A stretch of DNA of 64,000 bases from Leeuwenhoekiella blandensis MED217 (GTDB taxonomy: Bacteria; Bacteroidota; Bacteroidia; Flavobacteriales; Flavobacteriaceae): contig NZ_CH672395.1 in the NCBI RefSeq assembly GCF_000152985.1, forward strand, positions 906,567 to 970,566, given 5' to 3'. How positions within the stretch are numbered: the stretch's first letter is position 1; every line of letters begins with the position of its first letter. The notes beneath the pieces are model-generated. The model was not told the origin of the DNA and did no database searches. It saw nothing but the letters and a program-made list of their open reading frames with translations. The translations under genes and the position numbers were made by a program. Of the stretch, positions 21,987 through 31,602 are shown one piece after another.

Positions 21987-22072
21987 TCAATTTTTTATAT
22001 CAATCGGGGAGTAACGATTTTGCGAAGGACTAGACCTTAATTCCTTAATCACCCCACTAATTATTTTTTAAA
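21987..22072 (+). promoter_or_regulatory. Spacer with hairpin potential before rpsD (candidate S4 leader)
   Basis: 86 nt in an otherwise compact operon. GGGG at 22006-22009 can pair with CCCC at 22052-22055, enclosing AAGGA (22025-22029) with TCCTT (22042-22046). The pairing is short and AT-flanked, so structure is only suggestive. It precedes rpsD, whose product S4 is the autorepressor of the alpha operon in E. coli and of its own gene in Bacillus. No U-tract terminator is seen. Confidence 0.35.
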
Positions 22073-22678
22073 ATGGCAAGATATACCGGTCCTAAGACTA
22101 AAATCGCTCGTAAGTTTGGAGAAGCGATTTTTGGAGATGACAAATCTTTCGAAAAGAGAAATTATCCTCCAGGTCAGCATGGTAACAACAGACGTCGTGG
22201 TAAGAAGTCTGAGTATGCGATCCAGCTTCAAGAGAAGCAAAAAGCAAAATATACTTACGGGATATTAGAAAATCAATTCCGTAATATGTTTGAAAAAGCA
22301 ACAAGCGCAACGGGAATTACCGGGGTTGTGTTATTACAACTTTGTGAGTCACGTTTGGATAATGTTGTATTCAGAATGGGTATTGCTCCTTCAAGAAGAG
22401 CTGCTCGTCAATTAGTTTCACACAGACATATCACTGTTAATGGTGAGCTTGTAAACATTCCTTCTTATCAATTAAAGGCTGGAGATGTTGTTGCTGTACG
22501 TGAAAAATCAAAATCATTAAGTGCAATTCAGGATTCTTTAGCAAATGCTAGCCACGTATATGAGTGGATTTCTTGGAATAATGATTCAAAACAAGGTACT
22601 TTCGTTTCTGTTCCTGAACGTATTCAGATTCCAGAAAACATCAACGAACAGTTCATTGTCGAATTGTACTCTAAATAA
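22073..22678 (+). CDS. rpsD: 30S ribosomal protein S4
   Basis: 201 residues. It starts [21 protein letters not shown], as in Bacteroidota S4, with [29 protein letters not shown]-type landmarks, and carries an S4 RNA-binding domain with [30 protein letters not shown]. It lacks the four N-terminal cysteines of the zinc form. S4 nucleates the 16S 5' domain and acts in mRNA unwinding; it is an autogenous regulator in several phyla. rpoA follows after 27 nt. Confidence 0.99.
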
Positions 22679-27702: not shown

Positions 27703-27724
27703 TCTTTAAATGCTTAACTTATTA

Positions 27725-27757
27725 AAAGAGGCGCTTTGATAAAGCGCCTCTTTTTTT
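27725..27757 (+). terminator. Intrinsic terminator after eno
   Basis: A 13-bp stem, AAAGAGGCGCTTT at 27725-27737 and its complement at 27741-27753, with loop GAT, running into a T tract. It closes the eno transcript, so the structured elements that follow need their own promoter. Confidence 0.93.
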
Positions 27758-27999
27758 ATACTCAGGGTCTATTTTGATCGCATTATTTTTTCAGTAAAAA
27801 ATGCTAACTGATTCAAAATGATCATTGTATGAAAATGTAGCAATCCGAATATCTCGCTTTATACAAGTACTTGATGACTTAAATGGTTTGTTTTAACGAT
27901 TAAGTACTTATTTTTTCGATACAATTCAATTTTAGTAAGAAAAAAACTATTAATTTTCCACCGCAAATAAATTGGACTTAATGTTCAAAATTTAGATTA

Positions 28000-28088
28000 T
28001 TTCACCTAACATATCTAGGTAACTAGATCAGAAAATTTGAAGTTGGGTGAAAGAGCGATTCTGAAATAAGTATGTTTCGCTCTTTTTT
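28000..28088 (+). ncRNA. Structured element A upstream of gltA with its own terminator (riboswitch-like or small RNA)
   Basis: TTTCACCTAAC at 28000-28010 pairs over 11 bp (one G-U) with GTTGGGTGAAA at 28042-28052. The stem encloses a 6-bp hairpin ATCTAG/CTAGAT closed by a GNRA-type GTAA loop (28013-28028), and a 13-nt unpaired strand at 28029-28041. Directly after it AAAGAGCG (28050-28057) pairs with CGCTCTTT (28078-28085), followed by T's. The terminator stem shares bases with the 3' end of the first stem. A possible promoter lies just upstream, TTGG near 27973 and TAGATTAT at 27993-28000. It shares a 15-nt core, TTTGAAGTTGGGTGA, with element B. It may be a member of a described flavobacterial RNA family such as Flavo-1, which I cannot check. 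Confidence 0.6.
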
Positions 28089-28161
28089 ACCAAACTTAAG
28101 ATATCTAAGTTTTGAAGTTGGGTGAGGGGTAGTATACTTTTAAAGTATTTACCCCTTTTTT
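28087..28161 (+). ncRNA. Structured element B upstream of gltA with its own terminator (second copy)
   Basis: This element repeats the core TTTGAAGTTGGGTGA at 28111-28125, 75 nt after the copy in element A, and also shares ATATCTA. TTACCAAAC (28087-28095) can pair with GTTGGGTGA (28117-28125) with one mismatch, but the inner hairpin is weaker than in A. It is followed by a strong terminator: GGGGTA (28126-28131) with TACCCC (28150-28155), inner ATACTTT/AAAGTAT, then six T's. Its 5' arm overlaps the T tract of terminator A, so the two elements are physically chained. gltA begins 113 nt further on. Confidence 0.58.
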
Positions 28162-28273
28162 ATTTTCATTTTTTTAACCTTCCTATAAGTGCAAATACTT
28201 TAGAAATCCCTTTGCATTTCGTAATTTAGCAGCTCTTGAAAAAATTGATAATCAGCTAAAACATATTAAAAAA

Positions 28274-29560
28274 ATGGCAGATAATGCTAAACTAGTAATA
28301 GGTGATAAGTCCTATGAGTTTCCTATAGTAACTGGTAGTGAAAATGAAAGTGCAATCGATATCGCCAGCTTGCGCGCAGTAACAGGTGGTTTAACAACTA
28401 TAGATCCCGGTTTTAAAAATACAGGAAGTTGCGAGAGTGCAATAACCTTTTTAAATGGTGAGGAAGGAATCTTAAGATATCGCGGTTACGCCATTGAAGA
28501 TTTAGCTGAAAAAGCTTCTTTCTTAGAAGTGATTTATTTACTGATTTTTGGTGAATTACCTACTGAAGAGCAGTTGACCAAATTTCACAATGACATCAAA
28601 GAAGAAAACCACGTAGATGAAGACGTAAAGAAAATTCTTAACGGTTTTCCTAAGTCAGCGCATCCTATGGGTGTTTTGGCATCGCTTACTTCAGCCTTGA
28701 CCGCATTCAATCCAGATGCTGTTAATGTAGATTCTGAAGAAGATATGTATAACGCAATCGTTAAGCTTCTGGGTAAATTTCCAGTGTTAGTAGCTTGGAC
28801 GATGCGTACCAAAAAGAGCAAGCCACTTGATTATGGTGACGACAGCTTAAATTATGTAGAGAACTTACACAAAATGATGTTCTCTAAACCTAACAGCGAG
28901 TACAAAGTAGATTCAACAATCATTGAAGCTTTAGATAAGCTGCTTATCCTTCACGCAGACCACGAGCAAAACTGTTCAACTTCAACTGTACGTATCGTAG
29001 GATCATCTCACGCAGGTTTATTTGCTTCAATTTCCGCAGGTATTTCTGCACTTTGGGGACCACTTCACGGTGGAGCCAATCAAGCAGTGATTGAAATGCT
29101 TGAAGGGATTAAGGCTGATGGCGGAGATACTAAGAAATATATGGCTAAGGCAAAGGATAAAGAAGATCCATTCCGTTTGATGGGCTTTGGTCACCGCGTT
29201 TATAAAAACTTTGATCCGCGTGCAAAAATCATCAAGAAAGCAGCAGATGACGTTTTAGAACAGTTGGGTATAGAAGACGAAGTACTTGCTATCGCTAAAG
29301 GTTTAGAAAAAGAAGCGCTAGAAGATGAATACTTTGTAAAACGTAAATTATATCCTAACGTAGATTTCTATTCAGGTATCATTTATCGTGCATTAGGAAT
29401 TCCTGTTGAAATGTTTACTGTAATGTTTGCGATGGGTCGTGTGCCAGGATGGATCGCGCAATGGAGAGAAATGCGTCTTCGTAAAGAACCTATTGGACGA
29501 CCACGTCAGGTTTATATAGGCGAGACTCACCGTCCATTTAAAGCGATGAGTGAACGCTAG
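28274..29560 (+). CDS. gltA: Citrate synthase (type II)
   Basis: 428 residues, the hexameric gram-negative length. It has the N-terminal NADH-domain-like segment typical of type II enzymes. Catalytic landmarks are LHADHEQNCSTSTVR and GPLHGGANQAVIEML with the active histidines, and MGFGHRVYKNFDPRA with the third active-site region, then RPRQVYIGE near the end. It condenses oxaloacetate and acetyl-CoA. The start follows a 571-nt spacer holding two terminator-linked structured elements and a possible promoter (TAATTTAG near 28225). Terminator-gated control of TCA entry is therefore possible but unproven. A terminator follows the gene. Confidence 0.99.
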   Translation: MADNAKLVIGDKSYEFPIVTGSENESAIDIASLRAVTGGLTTIDPGFKNTGSCESAITFLNGEEGILRYRGYAIEDLAEKASFLEVIYLLIFGELPTEEQLTKFHNDIKEENHVDEDVKKILNGFPKSAHPMGVLASLTSALTAFNPDAVNVDSEEDMYNAIVKLLGKFPVLVAWTMRTKKSKPLDYGDDSLNYVENLHKMMFSKPNSEYKVDSTIIEALDKLLILHADHEQNCSTSTVRIVGSSHAGLFASISAGISALWGPLHGGANQAVIEMLEGIKADGGDTKKYMAKAKDKEDPFRLMGFGHRVYKNFDPRAKIIKKAADDVLEQLGIEDEVLAIAKGLEKEALEDEYFVKRKLYPNVDFYSGIIYRALGIPVEMFTVMFAMGRVPGWIAQWREMRLRKEPIGRPRQVYIGETHRPFKAMSER

Positions 29561-29581
29561 AATTAAAAAATAAAGTAATTG

Positions 29582-29622
29582 AAGCGGGTTTTTGGAGTTG
29601 ATCAAAAACCCGCTTTTGTTTT
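29582..29622 (+). terminator. Intrinsic terminator after gltA
   Basis: AAGCGGGTTTTTG at 29582-29594 pairs with CAAAAACCCGCTT at 29603-29615 (13 bp), followed by TTGTTTTT. The T-rich tail runs into the promoter of the next gene. Confidence 0.9.
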
Positions 29623-29630
29623 TATATTTG
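29623..29630 (+). promoter_or_regulatory. -7 promoter box of the DDAH-like gene, implying a leaderless mRNA
   Basis: TATATTTG is a perfect TAnnTTTG box. It ends 5 nt before the ATG at 29636. Since Bacteroidota transcription starts about 7 nt after this box, the mRNA should begin at or beside the start codon. A -33 TTG lies in the preceding terminator loop. Confidence 0.6.
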
Positions 29631-29635
29631 CGGGT

Positions 29636-30550
29636 ATGATTAAATTAAATATCACAGACGAAACCTCTCGTCTTCGAGCGGTAATATTAGGGACGGCTTT
29701 GAGCAATGGCGGTGTGCCAAAACTTGAAGATGCTTATGACCCTAAGTCTATTTTACACATAAAACAGAAAACCTACCCTAAAGAGGAGGATATGGTGGCA
29801 GAGATGAATGCTGTAGAAGAGGTTTTTAATAAATATGGCGTACAGGTTTTTAGACCTAAACTTATCGCAGATTATAATCAAATTTTTGCCAGAGATATTG
29901 GTTTTGTGATTGAAGATACGTTCATCAAAGCAAATATTTTACCAGATCGTGAGCAGGAAATCGAAGCTATAGAACACGTGCTCACACAAATTGATCCTGA
30001 GAAAATTGTAAGATTTCCAGAAGAAGCACATATCGAAGGAGGTGATGTGATGCCTTACAAAGATTATATTCTTGTGGGAGTATATCGTGGTCCAGACTAT
30101 TCTGATTATATTATCGCACGCACCAATATGCTAGCGATAGACTATTTGCAAAAGCTGTTTCCAGATAAAAAAGTGGTTTCGTTTAATCTAAGGAAATCAA
30201 ATACCAATCCTTATGAGAATGCTTTGCATTTGGATTGCTGCTTTCAACCGGTTGGAGAAAAATATGCCATTTTGCATAAAAACGGTTTTTTGGAAGCGTC
30301 TGAGTATAATTGGCTTGTAAATCTATTCGGAAAAGAAAATATCTTTGAGATCACTGCGGAAGAAATGTATCATATGAATTCAAACATTTTTTCAATTGCT
30401 CCCGATGTCGTGATTTCAGAACAAAATTTTACGCGTTTAAACACATGGTTACGCGACAAAGGTATTACTGTTGAAGAAGTACCTTATGCCGAAATATCTA
30501 AGCAGGAAGGGCTTTTGCGTTGCAGCACATTACCTCTGGTTAGAGAATAA
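29636..30550 (+). CDS. DDAH/amidinotransferase-family hydrolase (pentein fold, probable arginine-type deiminase)
   Basis: 304 residues from the ATG at 29636; a TTG-initiated 19-residue extension would be read from inside the gltA terminator and is rejected. The family motifs are present: FARDIGFV, AHIEGGDV with substrate-binding acids, LHLDCCF with the catalytic His, and the nucleophile Cys near the C-terminus in GLLRCSTLPL. Enzymes of this type hydrolyse guanidino groups (methylarginine or arginine to citrulline). It is followed by a second pentein enzyme after 119 nt, suggesting a two-step arginine-derivative route. The exact substrate cannot be read from sequence. Confidence 0.82.
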   Translation: MIKLNITDETSRLRAVILGTALSNGGVPKLEDAYDPKSILHIKQKTYPKEEDMVAEMNAVEEVFNKYGVQVFRPKLIADYNQIFARDIGFVIEDTFIKANILPDREQEIEAIEHVLTQIDPEKIVRFPEEAHIEGGDVMPYKDYILVGVYRGPDYSDYIIARTNMLAIDYLQKLFPDKKVVSFNLRKSNTNPYENALHLDCCFQPVGEKYAILHKNGFLEASEYNWLVNLFGKENIFEITAEEMYHMNSNIFSIAPDVVISEQNFTRLNTWLRDKGITVEEVPYAEISKQEGLLRCSTLPLVRE

Positions 30551-30669
30551 AATACCTCGGGCAAATCCAAGAGGCATACGTTAAAAACAAAATTTTGATT
30601 TCTTGGAATCCCGAAAACGATCTGGATATTAAATTCTTTGGCGGAGCCAATAAAATTGTCATTACCCCT

Positions 30670-31602
30670 ATGAAACAGAATACCAATACCGTTTTGATGG
30701 TGCGCCCTGCATCTTTTAGAAAGAACGAGCAAACTGCTGTAAACAATTATTTTCAAGAAGATCTCGCTCTTGAAAATGAAGCTATTAATGCACAAGCGCA
30801 GGAAGAATTTGATGGCTTTGTAGCAAAGCTCAAAGCAGCCGGAATTAATGTTTTGGTACTACAGGATGAGAAGGAGCTAGACACCCCAGATTCTATATTT
30901 CCTAATAATTGGGTGAGTACGCACGCTAACGGTGATGTAGCTGTTTATCCTATGTATGCCGAAAACAGACGCAGAGAGCGTCGTGAGGAGTTTTTTACGT
31001 TACTTGAGGATTCTGGATTTGCTATAAAAAATGTCATTGATTATACCGAAGCTGAAGAGGAAGAACTTTTTTTAGAAGGAACCGGAAGCATTATTCTAGA
31101 TCGGGAAAATGAGAAAGCCTACTGCGCACTTTCAGCACGCGCAGATGAGATGCTTTTTATAGAATTTTGTGAAGATTTTGGATACTTGCCTGTGATTTTT
31201 CACGCCAATCAAACCGTTGATGGTAAGCGCTTACCTATTTATCATACCAATGTAATGATGTGTGTCGCGCAAGATTTTGCCGTGATTTGTCTTCAGTCTA
31301 TAGATGATAAAAAAGAGCGTAAGCAAGTGATCAATCAGCTTAAGGAGTCAGGTAAAAAAATTATAGCGATCACTGAAGCTCAAATGCATCAATTTGCAGG
31401 AAATATGCTTGAAGTTGTGAATGCTTCTGGCCAAAAGTATTTGGTGATGAGTGCGCAAGCGTATAATTCTCTAGACGAAACTCAAATAGCATCTATTGAA
31501 AAATACAGTGAGATTTTAAGCAGTGATCTAAAAACTATTGAAACCTGTGGGGGAGGAAGCGCCCGTTGTATGATGGCAGAAATTTTCCTGCCTAGGTCTT
31601 AG
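30670..31602 (+). CDS. CtlX-type citrulline hydrolase / amidinotransferase-family protein
   Basis: 310 residues from the ATG at 30670 (MKQNTNTVLMVRPASFRKNEQTA). A TTG start at 30595 would add 25 residues of non-conserved sequence. Pentein landmarks are DTPDSIFPNNWVSTH, LEGTGSIILDREN, YHTNVMMCVAQDF with the catalytic His, and the nucleophile Cys in GGGSARCMMAEIF at the C-terminus. Relatives of this kind hydrolyse citrulline to ornithine (CtlX) in other bacteria. Next to the DDAH-like gene it could complete arginine to citrulline to ornithine. Its end overlaps the convergent BCCT gene by 11 bp. Confidence 0.8.
   Translation: MKQNTNTVLMVRPASFRKNEQTAVNNYFQEDLALENEAINAQAQEEFDGFVAKLKAAGINVLVLQDEKELDTPDSIFPNNWVSTHANGDVAVYPMYAENRRRERREEFFTLLEDSGFAIKNVIDYTEAEEEELFLEGTGSIILDRENEKAYCALSARADEMLFIEFCEDFGYLPVIFHANQTVDGKRLPIYHTNVMMCVAQDFAVICLQSIDDKKERKQVINQLKESGKKIIAITEAQMHQFAGNMLEVVNASGQKYLVMSAQAYNSLDETQIASIEKYSEILSSDLKTIETCGGGSARCMMAEIFLPRS

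Follow-up and report, generated by a model that had tools for sequence, protein, structure and literature searches.

In tandem glycine or guanidine riboswitches, a structured element is followed by a similar second one, with terminators. Among sRNAs, NmsRA and NmsRB of Neisseria meningitidis are described as similar molecules (70% identical) made in tandem, with predicted terminators, UC-rich anti-Shine-Dalgarno regions and a link to central metabolism, gltA being one of their targets (PMC5362039). The paralogous FopS/GibS sRNAs of Bacteroides thetaiotaomicron (RF04319) carry a conserved seed before a terminator hairpin; by the published description, FopS has 14 copies, its seed lies in a predicted single-stranded 5' stretch, and pairing takes place beside the start codon, blocking translation (PMC11697453). 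In Flavobacterium psychrophilum, Rfp18 is reported to affect the mRNA levels of its predicted partners, and its third stem-loop is predicted to pair with protease mRNAs (PMC9723704).

Here we describe two elements, A and B, found between eno and gltA in a window of 64,000 nucleotides (the whole stretch of Leeuwenhoekiella blandensis MED217 DNA analysed, whose coordinates are used throughout; Table 1). Judged from their sequence, A and B are probably tandem sibling genes for base-pairing sRNAs, with a common core as the seed and the mRNA of a kinase as the best candidate target. The tandem, the core, the terminator hairpins, a separate gltA box and the complementary site are all conserved in the sequence comparison; we infer that two RNAs are transcribed, that the core serves as their seed, that the target is repressed and that some signal drives the RNAs. 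The window genome (4.24 Mb) is G000, and G000 to G012 are the 13 genomes of the genus.

Table 1. Features of the eno-gltA interval (window coordinates).
Feature	Coordinates	Strand	Remarks
eno terminator	27724..27754	+	14-pair hairpin with T run; closes the upstream unit
Promoter-like TTGG-N17-TAGATTAT ahead of element A	27972..28000	+	flavobacterial -7 consensus
Element A (predicted sRNA A)	28000..28088	+	predicted start near 28005
Core of A, TTTGAAGTTGGGTGA (proposed seed)	28036..28050	+	
Terminator of A	28051..28088	+	stem AAGAGCGA/TCGCTCTT closing an 18-nt loop, then U tract
Element B (predicted sRNA B)	28089..28161	+	
Core of B (proposed seed)	28111..28125	+	same letters as core of A
Terminator of B	28126..28161	+	GGGG...CCCC plus U tract
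gltA -7-like box TAATTTAG	28222..28229	+	3' of both elements
gltA (citrate synthase)	28274..29560	+	neighbour; outside the sRNA transcripts by the favoured reading

Much of the layout given in a preliminary description of this DNA was confirmed: the 15-nt core occurs twice, 75 nt apart, the word ATATCTA is common to both elements (positions 28011 and 28101), the eno terminator lies upstream with gltA following, and folding shows a hairpin and U tract at the 3' end of both A and B. Exact copies of the core in the whole 4.24-Mb genome number two, those of A and B. A simple consensus terminator scan listed neither terminator (the loop of A has 18 nt and the stem of B is interrupted). Compared with dinucleotide shuffles, A folds with a z score of -5.0 (0/200 as good) and B with one of -3.3 (1/200 as good). 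Other details had to be amended. In element A, TTTCACCTAAC (28000-28010) can indeed pair with 28042-28052 over 11 bp around a 6-bp hairpin capped by GTAA. GTTGGG is preceded by 13 nt that had been taken for a single-stranded bulge, but the predicted fold pairs part of them. Likewise, the promoter-like TTGG and TAGATTAT ahead of A are present (27972-27975 and 27993-28000), at a spacing of 17 nt and not 20.

The flavobacterial -7 consensus is TAnnTTTG (PMC9723704). Read by eye, the position of A's promoter has TAGA in 8/8 main-clade species and TAGAYT in 6/8. If TAGATTAT is the -7 box, A would start near 28005 and the outer pairs of its 11-bp stem would fall outside the RNA; the outer four pairs are those not kept in relatives. 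The sequence upstream of B contains no clear promoter of B's own. Within the terminator of A, the loop at 28059-28076 (TTCTGAAA...AGTA) seems to vary less across the eight main-clade species than its role in termination would call for; it is possibly a second contact site or a start signal for B.

Among the 13 genomes of the genus searched, gltA was found in 12; the thirteenth, G012 (81% complete), in which neither gltA nor an element turned up, was left out. Both elements lie between eno and gltA in 10 of the 12, and neither is found there in G001 and G009. Among named relatives, a Dokdonia MAG has the nearest gltA (85%), and its locus (L033) is the only one of 80 named gltA loci to carry the tandem (3 mismatches in 16 allowed). 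When 397 genomes of the family were scanned by pattern and by covariance model, convincing elements outside the genus were confined to G256, which has both, and G240, which has one; these too are located between eno and gltA, and the G240 element is preceded by what looks by eye like a TTG-N19-TAGCTTTA-like promoter. Below these, model scores in the 397 genomes fell from 36 bits to 32.6 or less for all others. Matches below 33 bits were obtained in 57 further genomes, and none of the 12 loci inspected among them had eno or gltA in the locus. Where the loci of pattern matches outside the genus were inspected, an element-like context was present in G240 and G256 only; some 12 further pattern places outside the genus were judged by the model (R1) alone, and none of their genomes scored above 33 bits with it. 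Three matches at E 5e-4 or better, in G000, G010 and G256, were returned from 395 genomes of the order. Both scans used stricter filters that may miss weak relatives, and their results suggest that the RNA is narrowly spread and its position fixed. In another genus, a 27.8-bit match in the middle of locus L166 (G306) reads TTAGATTTTGAAGTTGGAAAAGGGAG and is followed by a clear terminator; this may be a single element distantly related to B.

The two structured elements run straight into their terminators 5' of a metabolic gene, with position and orientation unchanged wherever both were seen. This recalls tandem transcription-terminating riboswitches in the gltA leader, and the preliminary description had proposed such tandem aptamers gating entry into the TCA cycle. 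It had, however, overlooked the promoter-like box of gltA that lies 3' of both elements. A box of the form TAnTTTAG is present at -51 to -54 of gltA in 11/12 congeners, including G001 and G009, which lack the elements; a clear gltA box is missing in G008, which counts on the riboswitch side. At a wider range, of the 52 closest gltA loci (L033-L084), 39 have a TAnnTTnG box upstream where mononucleotide shuffles would give 11.6, and 31 of the 39 boxes lie 40-50 nt before the gltA ATG; for all 80 loci the figures are 50 and, again from shuffles, 17.7. The distance from the terminator of B to the box is 60 nt in G000, G003, G006, G010 and G011, 65 nt in G007 and 143 nt in G002, G004 and G005. From this conserved box 3' of both elements and the variable gap before it, it is most likely that A and B terminate before the gltA transcript begins.

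The lack of covariation also argues against an aptamer. Across 8 species, none of the 11 pairs of A's stem has changed on both sides; the stem has 84% standard pairs compared with 25-52% for slid versions, and only its inner 7 pairs are formed in all 8 species. For B, 0/8 pairs of the pairing tested show a change on both sides, with 64% paired and 33-55% in slid versions. Moreover, predicted folds differ among genera. A scan of the whole window with Rfam 15 at the gathering score gave a sole match, the S4-Flavobacteria ribosomal protein leader at 22016-22050, before an ORF at 22073 that we take, by its sequence, to be rpsD. Between 27700 and 28300, with E up to 10, matches over A or B were at chance level only, and the FopS model (RF04319) matched neither element, its sole match (E 1.9) lying over the eno terminator. 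A known Rfam RNA was ruled out by the absence of Rfam matches at A and B. Likewise, with gltA's separate box, kept also in species without the elements, and no covariation, a riboswitch or other gltA leader-type element was discarded, and we regard it as scarcely credible; no support was found for gating of the TCA cycle through the gltA leader, though read-through into gltA or an action on it in trans is conceivable. The other possibility raised in the preliminary description, two small RNAs, is supported: elements and terminators are conserved together, and the gltA box stands apart from them.

Downstream of the box, the gltA leader at 28230-28266 is strikingly conserved, with AGCARCTCTTGAA...TTGATAATCAGCTAAAA, or a near match, in most of the 12 congeners, and conserved also in the two without sRNAs. 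This stretch is possibly a separate control element of gltA. The two ORFs 3' of gltA (29579-31602) presumably encode proteins resembling arginine/citrulline-type hydrolases.

The core TTTKAAGTTGGGTRA is present in 24 of 25 element copies, the exception being A of G007, which begins CTTT; the copies were chosen by the core pattern, so that this constancy is partly built in, yet each tandem genome still yields both copies. In the main clade, A and B have the same core, TTTGAAGTTGGGTGA. Elsewhere TTTTAAGTTGGGTRA is the A core (G008, Dokdonia, G256) and TTTGAAGTTGGGTAA the B core (G007, G008, Dokdonia, G240, G256). The main-clade siblings may have become identical by gene conversion or through a shared partner. 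The letters 5' of the core and those of the terminator stems vary among copies; the terminator stems remain paired, and that of A has one pair with changes on both sides across species. In the predicted folds the core is partly paired, and in B of both Dokdonia and G256 a separate hairpin precedes the core, yet part of the core is paired even there. By comparison of the copies, the conserved feature is one strand and not a fold. That this strand stays constant while the 5' part before it varies, and that a terminator follows, suggests that the core is a seed; a conserved candidate seed of the kind expected in a base-pairing sRNA is found here, in copies selected by the core and with the core partly paired in folds. 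Such an sRNA would be expected to have a promoter and an intrinsic terminator but no ORF; folding and stem pairing support the terminator hairpins here, and promoter-like boxes precede A and the G240 element, with no clear one for B.

Candidate targets were sought in the 13 genomes with the exact 12-nt core complement ACCCAACTTHAA, the reversed pattern serving as control. Outside the elements, ACCCAACTTHAA has 56 sites in 12 of the 13 genomes (76 minus 20 antisense copies of the elements' own), which is no genome-wide enrichment over the 52 of the reversed pattern. Nor was the core complement enriched in G000 when up to 3 mismatches were allowed (419 vs 434, from a list that lacks the exact self-antisense copies and so may be incomplete). 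Position gave a different picture: 12/56 sites are followed within 100 nt by an ORF of at least 70 aa, compared with 2/52 for the reversed pattern. Six of the 12 belong to the same kinase gene, 21-23 nt before its ATG, in G000, G003, G004, G005, G006 and G010 (N-terminal parts 45-87% identical); the reversed pattern has no recurring leader site. The G000 protein, of 1205 aa, is a hybrid histidine kinase; its domains are PAS, HisKA, HATPase and a pair of receivers. With the kinase counted once, the leader enrichment is 7/51 vs 2/52 (p 0.08). All 12 leader sites are among the 44 sites of sRNA-bearing genomes, and none of the 12 sites in G001 and G009 is in a leader (p 0.04, where half of the 12 leader sites are one gene); the species being related, these p-values are guides only.

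Within a nine-species group of kinase genes, CCCAACTT is kept in 7/7 sRNA-bearing species and in 0/2 sRNA-less ones. This comparison was made without G011, G008 and the paralogue G000b (43-55% identity, long branches); the tree places the divergent G011 inside the group, and its inclusion makes the count 7/8. The leader reads TCCCAACTTTAA in G002 and, in the sRNA-less species, ACCAACTT (G001) and ATCCAACTT (G009), the last of which could still pair by way of one G-U. A G in the core faces an A of the site in the main clade, so that perfect pairing extends over 9 bp in most species and further in G000 and G002. Duplex energies, calculated with the core of G000, range from -14.1 to -18.9 in the seven sRNA-bearing species and are -11.6 and -10.0 in the two without sRNA; shuffles did as well in 0.2-3.8% of cases for the seven, 16% for G009 and 47% for G001. 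The value for the G000 kinase, -18.9, is lower than at all 55 ORF starts of the window (best -15.4). A conserved complementary site near the start of a putative target is thus found in the kinase leader. Its distribution has exceptions: G008 has no site in its kinase leader although the RNAs are present, in G011 the site is reduced to CCCAACT, kinase matches in G007 and G240 are partial, and G256 and Dokdonia have no kinase match at E 1e-30 although they have the RNAs.

Could the core serve another purpose? In sibling sRNAs that bind a protein through it, acting as titrating or sponge RNAs, the kinase site would be coincidental. Such a role would suit a 15-nt core that is longer and more constant than a minimal seed requires, in A and B alike, and anti-core sites that are not enriched genome-wide. 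The kinase leader, however, has the complement of the core and not the core, which fits pairing better than a shared protein site, and we find protein binding quite improbable.

Other mRNAs were also considered as partners. A 9-mer of the core complement followed by ATG was not enriched in 14 genomes (153 vs 164). A second recurring leader belongs to a repeat protein, leucine-rich-repeat-like by eye, of G004 and G005 (76% identical), with ACCCAACTT 29 nt before its ATG; in the G002 counterpart ACCCAACTT lies 29 nt before a 94-aa ORF with a similar beginning. These leaders (L432 in G005, L433 in G004, L308 in G002) contain ACCCAACTTGAATGAACC in about 45 identical nt, so their conservation is not specific to the site; the repeat-protein leader was kept as a second candidate target. 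The remaining places were set aside. Among the matches listed, recurring ACCCAACTT...ATG places were inspected in 29 regions and 30 loci, and most groups fall inside long coding frames; one is in a 16S-23S spacer (L300), one is a stretch that G006 and G009 share unchanged, and one, in G002 and G004, is non-coding and rich in repeats. The LytTR response regulator P0002 has TCAACCAACTTTAAA before its ATG in G000, a site kept in 0/11 other homologues inspected (last 70 nt). Presumably, GGGUGA of the core could pair with the tail of 16S rRNA; this idea was dropped, as relatives have GGGUAA.

It is conceivable, therefore, that the siblings pair with mRNAs other than that of the kinase, whose site would then be conserved for a different reason, for instance as part of its own promoter or start region. 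The predicted kinase mRNA does begin close to the site, part of which, CCAACTT, remains in the kinase leaders of G001 and G009, both without the RNAs; several sRNA-bearing genomes do not have this kinase, and the ACCCAACTT leader of the repeat protein is kept in three genomes. On the other side, the flanks of the kinase leader have diverged between the two kinase clades and the 12 letters have not, and the repeat-protein leader is identical well beyond its site. We consider this alternative unlikely.

With the kinase mRNA as partner, each RNA would bear the core UUUGAAGUUGGGUGA just 5' of its own terminator hairpin. The core would act as a base-pairing seed, in A partly hidden by the RNA's own 5' end: the arm there (ACCYAAC) is similar to the target and may keep the seed bound, to be displaced by a target. 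In the kinase mRNA, ACCCAACUU begins 21-23 nt before the AUG, near the predicted 5' end, and pairing just 5' of the AUG would block ribosome entry, with less kinase made as a result. FopS-10 has been proposed to block initiation likewise at susC (PMC11697453). The 5' arms of A and B resemble the kinase leader (ACCYAAC / ACCAAACUU) and can each pair with the core of the other element; a fold computed for 28000-28149 shows such a pairing, between A's 5' arm and the core of B. One can imagine from this a self-contained RNA circuit, in which read-through or joint synthesis would yield an inactive A-B duplex and separately terminated RNAs would silence the kinase. This extension is doubtful; if true, the choice of terminator beside gltA would set signalling through a hybrid histidine kinase.

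To our knowledge, few Flavobacteriaceae sRNAs have an assigned seed and target. No paper on the present RNAs was found among those listed on flavobacterial sRNAs, sRNAs of Leeuwenhoekiella or Dokdonia, gltA riboswitches, structured-RNA surveys or the core sequence itself, supplements and most subscription journals being outside the scope of the search. The locus offers a flavobacterial sRNA pair with a 15-nt candidate seed, a genus-wide spread with natural losses and a candidate sensor-kinase target. It also advises caution: when structured, terminator-linked repeats precede a metabolic gene, they are not necessarily riboswitches, and whether that gene has a promoter of its own is decisive.

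Unlike tandem glycine or guanidine riboswitches, the pair is followed by a gene with a box of its own, and there is no covarying aptamer at A or B. Compared by description, NmsRA/NmsRB share the tandem of similar sRNAs with predicted terminators, but the core of A and B is G-rich, and gltA is their neighbour and is not seen as a target (PMC5362039). Rfp18 and the other Rfp RNAs, also compared by description, are sRNAs of the same family of bacteria (PMC9723704). As FopS/GibS are described, they differ in copy number from the two adjacent copies here, in the place of the seed, which in A and B lies between a 5' arm and the terminator and is partly paired in folds, and in the proposed target; the likeness consists in the same phylum, in paralogous sRNAs with a conserved seed before a terminator hairpin, and in pairing beside a start codon to block translation, which is proposed for A and B likewise (PMC11697453).
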